Virus record (IMG/VR): IMGVR_UViG_3300031645_001454
Span: 1 to 37,131 of that record
Length of the DNA: 37,131 nt
Reading direction: 5' to 3' (one strand)
Origin: a virus
Of this stretch, positions 3,003 through 36,344 are shown piece after piece; the first letter of the stretch is position 1; every line of letters starts with the position of its first letter. Both the position numbers and the translations under genes were made by a program. The notes under the pieces were generated by a model. That model saw nothing but the letters and a program-made list of their open reading frames with translations. It searched no databases and was not told the DNA's origin.

Positions 3003-3572
3003 TCATTTCCCGTTGGCAGCCGGATCGAGGTTGTTCCCGTTGGTTCCTTTCTTTAGTAATTCAATTTGATTTTCAAGTGTTTTGATTTTAGCGAAAAAGC
3101 TTTGTTCCAACGCTGAAAACTTGGCGCTGAGGGTACGTTCACGGTCAACCGATTCGACGGCAGCATGGAAGGCATCAACGTTATAGGTCAGGGCGATGCT
3201 GTAGGGGGTGTTGGATTGTAAAACGCGGGCGGTTTTGCCTAAGAGTTCATCGAGCCGATCGGCGGGTGCTGCGGTTGGGGGTTCGGGTTGGGGTTCTTTG
3301 TCTTTGTTTTCCCAGGCAAGTCGCACCGATGTATGGACCGGCTTCGTGAACATATCCCCTTCACCGGTTTCGAGCCAACGTCTGGAGATTTTATGATTTA
3401 TTTGGATCAATTGCATTAATTGGTCTGAAGGTACTTTATTTTTTTTCTCTATGTCTGAAACGTAACCGCCCGTTATTCCAGTGGAATTTCCAAATTCCTT
3501 TTGGGTGAGATCAAGAGCTCTTCTGGCTTTTCTTAATCTTATTCCGAAAGTTGCAGTTTTTTCTGTTGACAT
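3003..3572 (-). CDS. CI-like phage repressor (XRE HTH plus coiled coil)
   Basis: 189 residues. Residues about 8-65 form an XRE/Cro-CI helix-turn-helix (LRKARRALDLTQKEFGNSTG, then GGYVSDIEKKNKVPS), followed by the RRWLETGEGDMF segment common after the HTH of phage CI-like repressors. A Pro/Glu-rich linker (about 90-105) leads to a C-terminal helical region with heptad-like spacing (LSAKFSALEQSFFAKIKTLENQIELL), a likely oligomerisation coiled coil. There is no S24/LexA-type peptidase domain, so RecA-stimulated self-cleavage is not expected. It is divergently transcribed from 3667 across a 94-base gap holding an inverted repeat. It probably maintains lysogeny and represses the early plus-strand operon. 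Confidence 0.85.
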   Translation of the reverse strand: MSTEKTATFGIRLRKARRALDLTQKEFGNSTGITGGYVSDIEKKNKVPSDQLMQLIQINHKISRRWLETGEGDMFTKPVHTSVRLAWENKDKEPQPEPPTAAPADRLDELLGKTARVLQSNTPYSIALTYNVDAFHAAVESVDRERTLSAKFSALEQSFFAKIKTLENQIELLKKGTNGNNLDPAANGK

Positions 3573-30881: not shown

Positions 30882-31478
30882 ATGAAAAGATTATTAATTG
30901 TTTTATTGACGCTGTTTTTTATTAGTCCGGTTTGGGCGGGGCCTGATTACACCAGCTCTCTTACTGGGGCTGAGGTTGATACGGGTATCACGAAGACTGG
31001 GTATCTCACTGTAACTGGGACTATTGATTTAGATGGGATTGAGGCCGGAGCAACAGCAAATAGTGCTGATGCAACCCTCCTTAATAGAGATAGCCATACC
31101 GGCACCCAGCCTACGGGTACTATTTTAGTTGCCGCAGATGAGCGTATTGTAGGTCGCGTCTCCGGAGCTGGGGGCACCGCCGAAGAGCTTACGCCTTTGC
31201 AAGTTTTAACTATGATCGGGATCCAAACCGGCACAAAAACTATAACCTCGGCGGCTATCGATGATTGGTTGGCGGATCCTCAAACAGCAACTGTCACATT
31301 AGAAAACACCCTGGCTGACACTGATTATCACGTCATCATAACCCTCGAAGACGCCGACGATATTGCCGCCGTGGGGGTTGTTTATGCATACGATAAATCA
31401 ACAACTGATTTTAAGGTCGCCTACACCGGCGGCACTGACAATGTTGATATCTGGTATACCGTAATTTACAATTATTAA
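30882..31478 (+). CDS. Tail-fibre-like protein with signal peptide (3 of 3)
   Basis: 198 residues; AGGAG upstream. The first 19 residues (MKRLLIVLLTLFFISPVWA) are a good signal peptide. The next part has IEAGATANSADATLLNRDSH followed by TGTQPTG, a motif familiar from phage tail fibres, then a 130-residue beta region with ITSAAIDDWLADPQTATVTL and a DUF-like WYTVIYNY end. A signal peptide on a fibre-like protein is unusual because virion proteins assemble in the cytoplasm. It could act as a periplasmic or surface-exposed protein, or the leader could serve as a fibre anchor. Confidence 0.65.
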   Translation: MKRLLIVLLTLFFISPVWAGPDYTSSLTGAEVDTGITKTGYLTVTGTIDLDGIEAGATANSADATLLNRDSHTGTQPTGTILVAADERIVGRVSGAGGTAEELTPLQVLTMIGIQTGTKTITSAAIDDWLADPQTATVTLENTLADTDYHVIITLEDADDIAAVGVVYAYDKSTTDFKVAYTGGTDNVDIWYTVIYNY

Positions 31479-32096: not shown

Positions 32097-33179
32097 ATGA
32101 GTCATATAATTTCAATACCCGACGCCATGCGGCAGTCGGTAGAAGCCGCCACTGGCGGCAAAAACACGGTTATGTATGATGACCAGGGCTTGCCCAGCAT
32201 CATGGTTGAGATCCCGAAATTTAAGCTTGAGGACATCGATGCCAGTTTAGGCACGGGTATTCATCCGGCGTTTATTATCGATGGGGTTGAAAAGAACAGC
32301 ATCTTCATTGGCAAATACCAGGCGACCCTACACGACAGCCGGGCCTGTTCCCTGCCGGGATTTGACCCCGCGACGTCGATGAATTTCGATGCCGCTTTGA
32401 CTTATTGCGCCAATAAGGGCACCGGCTGGCATTTGATGACTAACGCCGAATGGGCTGCCATAGCTTTATGGTGTTGGAAAAACGGCACGATGCCGCATGG
32501 TAACAATAATTACGGGAGAGATACGACTGATAAATTTGAAACTGGCAAACTCATGGTAGCCGGTACTGTTTTGGGGGCCAGCGGCACGGCGCGTACAGCG
32601 ACTGGATCCGGCCCCGCAACCTGGAGCCATGACCACACCCCCAACGGCATTTACGATCTTAACGGCAACGTTTATGAGTGGGTTGGTGGTTTACGTCTTA
32701 ATAATGGCGAGATCCAAGTTATCGAGGATAACGACGCCGCCGTCAATACCGTCGACCAGTCATCAACCTCGACTGCCTGGCAGGCTATTGCCGCAGCCGA
32801 TGGCAGCCTGGTCGCTCCCGGCACCACTGGCAGTCTTAAATATGATGCCACCAATGCCGATGGCTCCGGCAGCGTCCAGGTTGATGATGTTGTAGATAAT
32901 CAGTCTGATGGGTCAACTTATGCAGCTAATACATTTGAGTCCATAGCGGCGGATGCCGGGATTACAGTGCCAGATAGACTCAAACAATTAGCCTTAGCCC
33001 CAGCAGGCAGTGGACTGGGGAGCGATTATATCTACATGCGCAATCTAGATGAGCGTTTGCCGGTTCGGGGTGGCGGTTGGGACTCTGGCACGAATGCCGG
33101 CGTCTTCATGCTCAACCTCTTTTACGCTCGCTCGAGTGCGAGCAGCAGTATTGGCTTTCGTCCCGCTTTTGCGATCTGA
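32097..33179 (+). CDS. DGR variable protein (FGE/C-type lectin fold, tail receptor-binding)
   Basis: 360 residues; ACAGGAG before the ATG. Residues about 1-75 form an attachment region. From about 76 the sequence has the formylglycine-generating enzyme (FGE-sulfatase) layout of DGR variable proteins: FIGKYQATLHDSRACSLPG, LTYCANKGTGWHLMTNAEWA, GIYDLNGNVYEWVGGLR and a C-terminal RLPVRGGGW...SIGFRPAFAI. This C-type-lectin-like fold displays variable residues on one face. The last 38 residues are coded by the variable repeat VR (33052-33167), and the gene stops just after it. The variable residues include W-D-S, L-F-Y and S-A-S-S-S positions. It should bind the host receptor at the tail tip. Confidence 0.93.
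   Translation: MSHIISIPDAMRQSVEAATGGKNTVMYDDQGLPSIMVEIPKFKLEDIDASLGTGIHPAFIIDGVEKNSIFIGKYQATLHDSRACSLPGFDPATSMNFDAALTYCANKGTGWHLMTNAEWAAIALWCWKNGTMPHGNNNYGRDTTDKFETGKLMVAGTVLGASGTARTATGSGPATWSHDHTPNGIYDLNGNVYEWVGGLRLNNGEIQVIEDNDAAVNTVDQSSTSTAWQAIAAADGSLVAPGTTGSLKYDATNADGSGSVQVDDVVDNQSDGSTYAANTFESIAADAGITVPDRLKQLALAPAGSGLGSDYIYMRNLDERLPVRGGGWDSGTNAGVFMLNLFYARSSASSSIGFRPAFAI
33052..33167 (+). repeat. DGR variable repeat (VR)
   Basis: 116 bases at the 3' end of the variable protein gene that match the template repeat at 33592-33707 (offset 540). Differences: 33085, 33120, 33121, 33123, 33136, 33142, 33145 and 33148, all opposite template A, plus 33081 (G against T). The final 19 bases, ATTGGCTTTCGTCCCGCT with the preceding T, contain no substitution and include the position where homing starts (IMH). 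Confidence 0.95.
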
Positions 33180-33205
33180 AATCTGTAAACCTGTAATCTG
33201 AATTA

Positions 33206-33221
33206 ATGCGCGGTAGCGCAT
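33206..33221 (+). promoter_or_regulatory. DGR target hairpin with GRNA tetraloop
   Basis: ATGCGC (33206-33211), GGTA loop (33212-33215), GCGCAT (33216-33221). The Bordetella phage BPP-1 DGR needs a hairpin or cruciform with a GRNA loop just downstream of VR for target recognition. The loop GGTA fits GRNA. The stem is 6 bp and about 35 bp from the VR end, somewhat shorter and further than in BPP-1. No equivalent follows TR. Confidence 0.55.
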
Positions 33222-33230
33222 GGAACTATA

Positions 33231-33572
33231 ATGGAAGAGTTGGTTATTAAACAAAAAGTCGAAGATATGATCGCCTATAGCTACGTGGCACTACGTCAAT
33301 TTCCTAAATCTGAACGACATGTTTTGTCGCAGGAAATAAGACTGGGTCTGTGGCGGTTGTTGCGGTTGATCATTATTTGTAACCGACGTTATTTTAAAAA
33401 GACGACCCTGCAGGATCTTGATGCTGAGCTCGACCTCTTACGCACCCAGGTCAGAATGGCCCACATTTTAGGGTTTCTTCCATTGAAAAAATATGAAGTT
33501 TGGAGTCGCGCCCTGGATGAGGTCGGCCGCCTGATCGGCGGCTGGCTGAAGTCTTTTCGGGCGCGGCAATAA
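33231..33572 (+). CDS. avd: DGR accessory variability determinant (Avd)
   Basis: 113 residues, all helical and basic, as in Avd proteins, which form a pentameric four-helix-bundle barrel that binds the reverse transcriptase and the TR RNA. Recognisable segments: KQKVEDMIAYSYVALRQFPKSERHVLSQEI (helices 1-2), GLWRLLRLIIICNRRYFKK, and LDAELDLLRTQVRMAHILGFLPLKKYEVWSRALDEVGRLIGGWLKS. The order variable protein, avd, TR, RT is the standard DGR arrangement. It begins 9 bases after the target hairpin. Ribosome site weak. Confidence 0.93.
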   Translation: MEELVIKQKVEDMIAYSYVALRQFPKSERHVLSQEIRLGLWRLLRLIIICNRRYFKKTTLQDLDAELDLLRTQVRMAHILGFLPLKKYEVWSRALDEVGRLIGGWLKSFRARQ

Positions 33573-33591
33573 GTAGGGTTAGAGATTATAT

Positions 33592-33707
33592 AGCGTTTGC
33601 CGGTTCGGGGTGGCGGTTGGTACTATGGCACGAATGCCGGCGTCTTCATGCTCAACCTCAATAACGCTCGCTCGAATGCGAACAACAATATTGGCTTTCG
33701 TCCCGCT
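33592..33707 (+). ncRNA. DGR template repeat (TR), part of the TR RNA
   Basis: A noncoding copy of VR, 116 bases. Read in the variable-protein frame it has TAC-TAT (Tyr) and six AAY (Asn) codons at the diversified sites, the usual design, because A-only changes in these never create a stop. It holds 22 adenines. The match continues at 33709-33712 beyond one C/T difference. The RNA should extend into the 170-base spacer up to the reverse transcriptase (33708-33879), which in other DGRs supplies Avd/RT binding and primes cDNA; no gene is seen there. Confidence 0.93.
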
Positions 33708-33879
33708 CTTGCTACAGCCAGAAGTTCGGTTCTCGTAACAGGAGCCGTTCCAGTGCACCTTTAAAAGGATCTCTAATCCCCGGTTTTAAACGACCGAAAA
33801 ATATAAACAGGTAGTCCGGGATAGTAGGTTTATCCGAACCCTCGTCCTGCCGCCTCTAAAAAGCTGGATCAATTTGCAA

Positions 33880-34884
33880 ATGGCAAAAACGTATAAAGAT
33901 ATTTACCCAAATGTTTACTCTTTCGAGTCGCTCTATGAGGGTTATCTGCGAGCCCGGAAAGGTAAGCGTTACCGGCCCGAAGTTTTACGTTTTACAAAGT
34001 GTTTAGAAGAAAATCTAATTCATCTGCAAAATGAGTTGATCTGGAAGATGTATAAAACCGGGCGCTATCGTGAGTTTTATGTGTATGAACCCAAACAACG
34101 CACGATTGCCGCTCTGCCTTTTCGGGACCGGGTGGTGCAGCACTCTCTAGTTGCTGCCATCGAGCCCTTATGGGAGAGGCAGTTTATTTTCGATAGCTAT
34201 GCCTGCCGGATTGGTAAAGGAACCCATGCCGGGGTTGATCGAGCTCAATTTTTTCTACGTCGACAACGTCACCGCTCGGGCTTGGTCTATGTTTTAAAGT
34301 GCGACATCAATAAATACTTTGCCAGTATCAATCATAAGGTCCTCAAACAACTACTGCGTCGTCGGATCACGTGTCCGGACACTCTATGGCTGCTCGATGA
34401 GATAGTCGACTCAACCCCTGATCCGGGGATCCCGATTGGTAATCTGACCAGCCAATTATTCGCCAATATCTATCTGCACGAGCTCGATGAATTTGTTAAA
34501 TATGGACTCAAAGAACCTACCTATATGCGCTATATGGATGACTTTATAGTCGTCCATCACGATAAAAGCTACCTGCAGGGCCTGCGCCAAAAAATTGAAA
34601 CATTTCTAAACGAACACCTTAGTTTAATAACTAATGGAAAGACCCAAATATTTCCGGTTTCAGCCACCAGGGGCCGCGCACTTGATTTTTTAGGTTATAA
34701 AATCTGGCCGACGCATCGCCGGTTAAGAAAAGATTCAGTACGGCGAATGCGTCAGAAACTTAGGCTATTCCGCAAAAATAAAATATCTCAAGAGGAGTTC
34801 CAGCGATCCCTTAACGCATGGCTTAGCCATGCCGGACATGCGGACACACACAACCTGCAAAATAAACTTTTAAAGGAAATTTAA
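33880..34884 (+). CDS. DGR reverse transcriptase
   Basis: 334 residues from the ATG at 33880; a TTG at 33874 would add two. The RT motifs are LKCDINKYFASINHKVL (motif A with Asp), GIPIGNLTSQLFANIYLHELD (motif B; SQ present, as in DGR RTs) and YMRYMDDFIVVH (motif C; YMDD, Tyr218-Asp221), then LSLITNGKTQIFPVSATRG (motif D/E) and DFLGYKIWPTHRRLR at the thumb. No maturase or endonuclease domain is present, in agreement with DGR RTs. It copies TR RNA into cDNA, misincorporating opposite adenines, for transfer to VR. Confidence 0.96.
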   Translation: MAKTYKDIYPNVYSFESLYEGYLRARKGKRYRPEVLRFTKCLEENLIHLQNELIWKMYKTGRYREFYVYEPKQRTIAALPFRDRVVQHSLVAAIEPLWERQFIFDSYACRIGKGTHAGVDRAQFFLRRQRHRSGLVYVLKCDINKYFASINHKVLKQLLRRRITCPDTLWLLDEIVDSTPDPGIPIGNLTSQLFANIYLHELDEFVKYGLKEPTYMRYMDDFIVVHHDKSYLQGLRQKIETFLNEHLSLITNGKTQIFPVSATRGRALDFLGYKIWPTHRRLRKDSVRRMRQKLRLFRKNKISQEEFQRSLNAWLSHAGHADTHNLQNKLLKEI

Positions 34885-35660: not shown

Positions 35661-36344
35661 ATGGTTAACCAAATAAAACTAAGCCTGGCACTACTTATTC
35701 TGACCACCCTGTTAACCGGTTGTTACGGTATGCGGCCCGAAATGTACCAGGCCCGGACGGCCTATTACAACGCCCAGGTTGCCGCTTATCAAGCTCAATC
35801 AGCCCAAGCTCAACAACCATTATTGTCAATGACCACAACTGATGGCAGTAAGGTTAGTGTGGCCAATCCGATCCCTGTAGCACTGCCTGTTGTCCAGCAG
35901 GAGCGTAACGGCTGGGTTGATTTCGGCAAAACTATTATAAACTCTACACCGTTGTCAATACTGGCAGGGGGCTGGTCAGCATCGAAACTGCTTAAATACT
36001 CAACCGGTGATGTTAATATAAATGGTGACGGAAATACCGCGAGCCCGATTAGTAACTCGTACAACACCAAAACTACTGATATCGCGTCTACAGGAGACGA
36101 CAGCACTCTTGACCAGCATGCCGACAGCAGCGACAATAGTAGTGTTGATAAGAGCGACAGTAGCGATAACAGTAATAATAGCGACAATAGTGATAACAGT
36201 AGCGTAGACAACAGTGATAACCGAACTGATTATGACAACCAGACGGCAACTCCGACAATTGTTGAGCAGCCGGCACCAGTGATTGTAGACCCGGTTATAG
36301 TCAATCCCAAAGTTGTCAATCCAGTGGTATTAAATAATAACTAA
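35661..36344 (+). CDS. Ser/Asp/Asn-rich lipoprotein
   Basis: 227 residues; AAAGGAG upstream. The lipobox LTGC gives lipidation at Cys21 after a 20-residue signal peptide. Next is an Ala/Gln/Tyr-rich helix (YYNAQVAAYQAQSAQAQQ), a middle domain (SKVSVANPIPVALP, INSTPLSILAGGWSASKLLK), and then a low-complexity run at about 148-193 made of Ser, Asp and Asn (coded by GAYAGY-type triplets at 36120-36225), ending in Pro/Val. It follows the lysozyme, where outer spanins occur, but is much longer than those. It may act at the outer membrane in lysis or lysogenic conversion. Confidence 0.65.
   Translation: MVNQIKLSLALLILTTLLTGCYGMRPEMYQARTAYYNAQVAAYQAQSAQAQQPLLSMTTTDGSKVSVANPIPVALPVVQQERNGWVDFGKTIINSTPLSILAGGWSASKLLKYSTGDVNINGDGNTASPISNSYNTKTTDIASTGDDSTLDQHADSSDNSSVDKSDSSDNSNNSDNSDNSSVDNSDNRTDYDNQTATPTIVEQPAPVIVDPVIVNPKVVNPVVLNNN

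Follow-up and report, generated by a model that had tools for sequence, protein, structure and literature searches.

A complete, probably functional diversity-generating retroelement of the BPP-1 type with a TaqVP-like target in a temperate tailed phage

The window, by which we mean the whole stretch of DNA analysed (37,131 nucleotides, positions 1-37,131 of IMGVR_UViG_3300031645_001454, to which all coordinates below refer), carries a diversity-generating retroelement (DGR) that we judge, with a probability of about 0.93, to be a complete and probably functional element of the BPP-1 type in a temperate tailed phage. The original prediction, made from the sequence, had placed a full set of DGR parts at 32097-34884. 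All of its coordinates held, and the order variable protein, avd, template repeat (TR) and reverse transcriptase (RT) can be read directly from the window (Table 1). Every sequence-level test tried sustained the DGR call, including those on the points at which the original prediction had said that it could fail, namely the variation of the variable repeat (VR), the distribution of that variation over the bases and the affinity of the RT. The class is well known and widespread, with more than 30,000 DGRs catalogued (PMC8144416), and the cassette of this phage and its target are, as had been proposed, a new example of it. It leaves the basic understanding of DGRs unchanged and adds one well-formed case, whose components (target hairpin, TR, spacer RNA, Avd, RT) can each be read off, to a large family of TaqVP-like phage DGRs with many sequenced relatives.

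Table 1. Positions in the window of the DGR parts and of the gene for the probable carrier
Feature	Position	Strand	Description
Probable carrier/adaptor of the variable protein	30882..31478	+	Conserved C-terminal domain; putative role
Variable (target) protein	32097..33179	+	360 aa; TaqVP-like C-type-lectin fold (FGE subtype); VR at C-terminus
Variable repeat (VR)	33052..33172	+	3' end of target gene; 121-base repeat of TR; last bases are the presumed IMH
Stem-loop	33206..33221	+	ATGCGC(GGTA)GCGCAT, read directly from the sequence; presumed target-recognition hairpin/cruciform
avd, accessory variability determinant	33231..33572	+	113 aa; bAvd PF22296, NF033474, phrog_3206
Template repeat (TR)	33592..33712	+	22 adenines; last bases are the presumed IMH*; aligned with TRs of relatives
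Structured spacer RNA, Rfam RT-14 (RF02921)	33712..33852	+	141 bases, between TR and RT
DGR reverse transcriptase	33880..34884	+	334 aa, from ATG 33880; 8ub7, phrog_1423, motifs, tree

Gene products of the cassette and their closest relatives

The variable protein matched TaqVP (5vf4), the solved DGR variable protein of a Thermus prophage (PMC6328139), over its full length (E = 3e-93), and its Pfam match was FGE-sulfatase. The structure model that the original prediction had called for was confident (pLDDT 90); TaqVP ranked first among PDB folds, with a TM of about 0.9, and was followed by FGE-type enzymes, the Treponema variable protein and Mtd. Both the homology to TaqVP and the model place a C-terminal VR in a C-type-lectin fold, as is expected of a DGR target. 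The Avd protein scored 110 bits against bAvd and 114.5 bits against the DGR Avd model NF033474 (cut-off 80), and it matched phrog_3206. A phmmer comparison with solved structures gave no match for Avd, though the family models matched strongly.

For the RT, the best match among solved structures was the BPP-1 RT (8ub7, 230 bits), the next being a group II RT at 64 bits, and phrog_1423 was matched at 462 bits. The protein contains the motifs YMDD and IGNLTSQ. In a tree that sampled BPP-1, other phages and genomes from the order of a Desulfuromonas MAG, it grouped with BPP-1 and the SQ-motif RTs, and the group II RTs with QGG..SP were separate. These observations agree with the DGR type that had been assigned to it. 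A group II intron RT/maturase was rejected, as the match to TIGR04416 reached 131 bits against a cut-off of 300 and the motif is SQ rather than of the QGGxxSP type. More generally, matches to group II intron, retron and DRT models were sub-threshold and far below the curated cut-offs.

Similar to the DGR of Bordetella phage BPP-1 (mtd-avd-TR-brt) in gene order, Avd family and phage context, the cassette encodes an RT that is 41.5% identical to that of BPP-1, and both elements have, between TR and RT, a structured spacer some 140 bases long and, after VR, a hairpin with a GRNA loop. In contrast to BPP-1, the target is TaqVP-like and not Mtd-like, Mtd being a weak fold match, and the spacer matches RT-14, whereas the BPP-1 spacer at the equivalent place constitutes a separate Rfam family, Phage_DGR (RF03022). 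The DGR of the Thermus aquaticus prophage encoding TaqVP (5vf4, PMC6328139) shares with it full-length target homology and the same fold (about 45% identity in structural alignment), a VR placed at the extreme C-terminus and the VP-avd-TR order, but it belongs to another phage and host, and TaqVP is a thermophile protein that is about 20 residues longer. Pseudoalteromonas phages ACA1/ACA2 and Vibrio phages VHML/VP585 have the same module order, with RTs about 50% and variable proteins about 39% identical and with the target annotated as an antireceptor in the ACA phages; unlike this phage, they are of the P2-like or VHML-like kind and infect other hosts. The annotated ACA RT gene, unlike the one described here, also spans the spacer region, and the RT-14 match there is below the cut-off.

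Adenine-specific divergence of template and target

The original prediction had compared VR 33052-33167 with TR 33592-33707 and counted differences at 8 of 22 template adenines and at 1 of 94 other sites (a T), a count that proved exact for these 116 bases. The repeat extends further, to 33172/33712, which adds one C/T difference. The full alignment is ungapped, with 10 mismatches in 121 bases, located at 8 of the 22 template adenines and 2 of the 99 other sites (one-sided hypergeometric p = 1.3e-5 for the window's pair). With eight of the ten mismatches at TR adenines, the adenine-directed mutagenesis that had been claimed is supported. Read in frame, the changes from TR to VR are YY>DS, NN>FY, N>S and NNN>SSS; 13 in-frame adenine-bearing TR codons remain, which on paper allow ~2e12 protein variants if a TAG at the 5' edge is omitted. 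The C/T difference, at 33708/33168, sits in the common 3' end, beyond which TR and VR diverge, and the identical template/target difference was seen again in relatives. This recurrence fits the expectation for an IMH*/IMH pair, and VR therefore carries a putative IMH that is distinct from the IMH* of TR.

A scan with the variable protein yielded 80 related loci; with the addition of loci from RT scans, 51 had a clear TR/VR pair. Pooled over 47 relatives, VR differed at 539 of 1100 template adenines versus 20 of 4173 other sites. This pooled count omits the atypical pairs of L003, L021, L071 and L088, which were dropped after the pairs had been inspected (mismatches at TR adenines were 4/8 in L003, 7/12 in L021 and 7/9 in L088), and because it retains near-duplicate loci, e.g. 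L041/L044, the pooled Fisher p-value overstates independence. Four contigs (L051, L055, L059 and L060) have identical TRs and are 100% identical over the 900 bases before VR, and their VRs are 84-87% identical in pairwise comparison. Their VR polymorphism fell at 24 of 26 TR-adenine sites and 2 of 89 others, and L030/L031 and L040/L042 displayed the same pattern. The comparison of sister genomes suggested in the original prediction, run here on relatives from the family, thus gave variation lying almost exclusively at the positions opposite TR adenines. A sibling of this phage was not found in an exact DNA search of viral contigs with the conserved TR/VR start, and VR variation among the sister phages of the family bears indirectly on the predicted mutagenic retrohoming.

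Some loci depart from the usual arrangement. At L014, L023, L066, L068, L070, L075, L084-L086, L089 and L090, the fetched DNA contained no Avd, TR or RT; these variable proteins may be lone targets, or their cassettes may lie elsewhere or beyond the contig. The cassette at L017:5302-6593 has a weak Avd match (33%) and a TR-RT gap of 520 bases, compared to the usual of about 160, and its VR has adenine changes only.

The sole non-adenine mismatch within the 116 bases is at 33081/33621, where VR has G and TR has T. At first impression this T>G was a non-adenine error; a later A>T change in TR fits better, because the TR column at 33621 is A in 41 of 48 comparable relatives. It is therefore likely that VR was written from an A template and that TR changed later, the template adenine at this site having probably been lost only recently. 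Three further positions of the window's TR, 33615, 33616 and 33624, carry G, G and T in place of the A found in most relatives. Where this TR has Tyr codons (TAC, TAT), its nearest relatives, L007 and L013, have codons for Asn (AAC, AAT). A directed loss of adenines from the window's TR was considered and set aside: 4 of the 19 columns with a conserved A are affected, which is weak support, and larger losses have occurred in seven relatives.

In a separate observation, the TR at L071:5525-5640 has lost 20 of 25 adenines compared with the near-identical TRs of its sisters (L065, L072), with unchanged flanks. Just two other changes were seen in it, both T>G at non-adenine sites, and at the 5' one of these sites this TR now agrees with its own VR, which renders copying from VR as likely as self-homing. 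The L071 template change may be an assembly artefact. It seems rather unlikely that TRs are now and then overwritten in nature by adenine-mutated sequence, through self-homing or VR copying, and that templates thereby lose adenines over time. If they were, the window's TR, with non-A bases at 33615, 33616, 33621 and 33624, would represent an early stage of the process and the L071 TR its terminal stage.

RNA and DNA structures and the proposed mechanism

Two structural features had been overlooked in the original prediction. The spacer between TR and RT matches RT-14 at 51.4 bits (gathering cut-off 48.1), with higher scores, 66 and 61 bits, in the nearer relatives L013 and L007. A match running from the TR end toward the RT start was found in 12 of 18 relatives tested, and across 33 spacers all predicted pairs (21/21) had pair-keeping changes on both sides. 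The match and the covariation identify a structured RNA 3' of TR, as is expected of a DGR. In BPP-1, the spacer recruits RT-Avd and primes cDNA synthesis (PMC12875486). Because its position matches that of the BPP-1 spacer and its structure is conserved, RT-14 very probably serves this branch as its DGR spacer RNA, which would give it a likely function in holding the RT-Avd complex and priming cDNA. A limited literature search on RT-14/RF02921 found no paper, and a DGR role may be published elsewhere. The table description of RF02921 reads just 'RT-14 RNA', with no DGR label.

The other feature is the stem-loop that starts 33 bases past VR. Among the 37 hairpins at the post-VR site (the window and those relatives having one), 25 have a GRNA tetraloop, mostly GATA. 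The post-VR hairpin of BPP-1 is needed for efficient retrohoming, and the consensus reported for phage DGRs places a GC-rich stem of 7-10 bp, capped by a GRNA loop, at a distance of 4-34 bp from VR (PMC3240598). At 6 bp, the stem in the window is slightly under this published range; despite its shortness, the sequence contains the hairpin/cruciform with a GRNA loop after VR that is characteristic of phage DGRs.

By analogy with BPP-1, from which cDNA priming in the spacer, retrohoming, TR protection and the receptor role are taken over, the element may work as follows. A transcript covering the end of avd, TR and the spacer would fold at the spacer, and the folded spacer would hold the RT-Avd complex. 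The RT would then make cDNA of TR, misincorporating opposite adenines, and this cDNA would take the place of the 3'-terminal VR in the variable-protein gene, with the common IMH/IMH* end and the stem-loop as guides. TR would normally retain its own sequence, since it lacks the VR-side IMH variant and the hairpin. The altered residues fall in the C-terminal variable region, which is the ligand-binding site in proteins of the TaqVP type. As the protein is most likely an antireceptor, the phage population could in this way sample many receptor specificities.

Whether the parts form a working element can be weighed against two other accounts. It is vanishingly improbable that the repeats arose by chance or ordinary duplication beside an unrelated RT of a group II intron, retron or DRT. 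The RT domain does give sub-threshold matches to models of all three, but the group II score lies far short of its cut-off, the SQ motif stands in place of QGG..SP, and the adenine bias, already significant in the window, is overwhelming in relatives; the adenine-limited variation of the relatives and the RT tree refute this account. We consider it unlikely, though less so, that the DGR, though its sequence is intact, is silent, its VR having been written in the past and being now fixed. The change in TR after the last writing that best explains the T>G at 33081, the short hairpin stem and the failure of the viral-contig search to find a sibling would all suit a silent element. The stem length, the missing sibling and the few adenines that TR has lost and most relatives retain also weigh against the functional reading. 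Against silence, every part is undamaged, the frames are open and the catalytic YMDD is present, there is a single post-writing difference of the 33081 kind, and recent activity is visible in close family members. We therefore favour a probably functional DGR.

Phage context and the role of the target

The gene content of the record indicates a temperate tailed phage: integrase (543-1700) and repressor (3003-3572) genes precede those for terminase, portal, head protease, tape measure and tail protein, after which lie the DGR and, next, the endolysin gene. The variable-protein gene comes directly after the tail module. The C-terminal domain of the probable carrier recurs in 18 relatives, in a protein encoded at the equivalent position ahead of the variable-protein gene, which suggests a carrier or docking partner for a separately encoded receptor-binding protein; this gene product is likely the docking partner of the variable protein. 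In ACA1/ACA2, the annotated antireceptor homologue adjoins a tail-fibre attachment subunit, and between these phages, which have different hosts, target differences are concentrated in VR. From homology and position, the variable protein is most likely the phage antireceptor. The earlier readings of a 'tail-tip gene' and of 'host-range switching' are plausible, given the annotated antireceptor homologues and the location after the tail module. Adenine mutagenesis has support in the sequence itself, and receptor diversification is strongly suggested.

It is also conceivable, but very unlikely, that a working DGR diversifies something other than a tail receptor-binding protein, e.g. a protein made from the prophage and then secreted or placed on the host surface. 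Consistent with such a target, TaqVP, the closest solved relative, is monomeric, consists of one domain and lacks the trimer-forming domains of Mtd, and the best PHROG of the target has unknown function. These points are outweighed by the place of the gene, the conserved probable carrier that precedes it in relatives, the ACA antireceptors, which have different VRs in phages that infect different hosts, and the predominance of tail proteins among phage DGR targets (PMC8144416). An antireceptor thus remains the preferred assignment.

The nearest chromosomal cassette, in a Desulfuromonas MAG (L007), has an RT with 70% identity, but its terminase reaches just 31%, and neither of the two closest phage records gave a match to the terminase of this phage. 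These observations suggest that the tail-DGR cassette moves between phages as a module. No att-site direct repeat of at least 11 bp was found between the window ends. A match to the group II intron RNA family RF02005 (91 bits) lies at 6-158, at the start of the record and before the integrase gene. Downstream of the endolysin gene, an ORF at 35661-36344, lipoprotein-like with a short signal, contains Ser-Asp-Asn codon repeats at 36115-36220.
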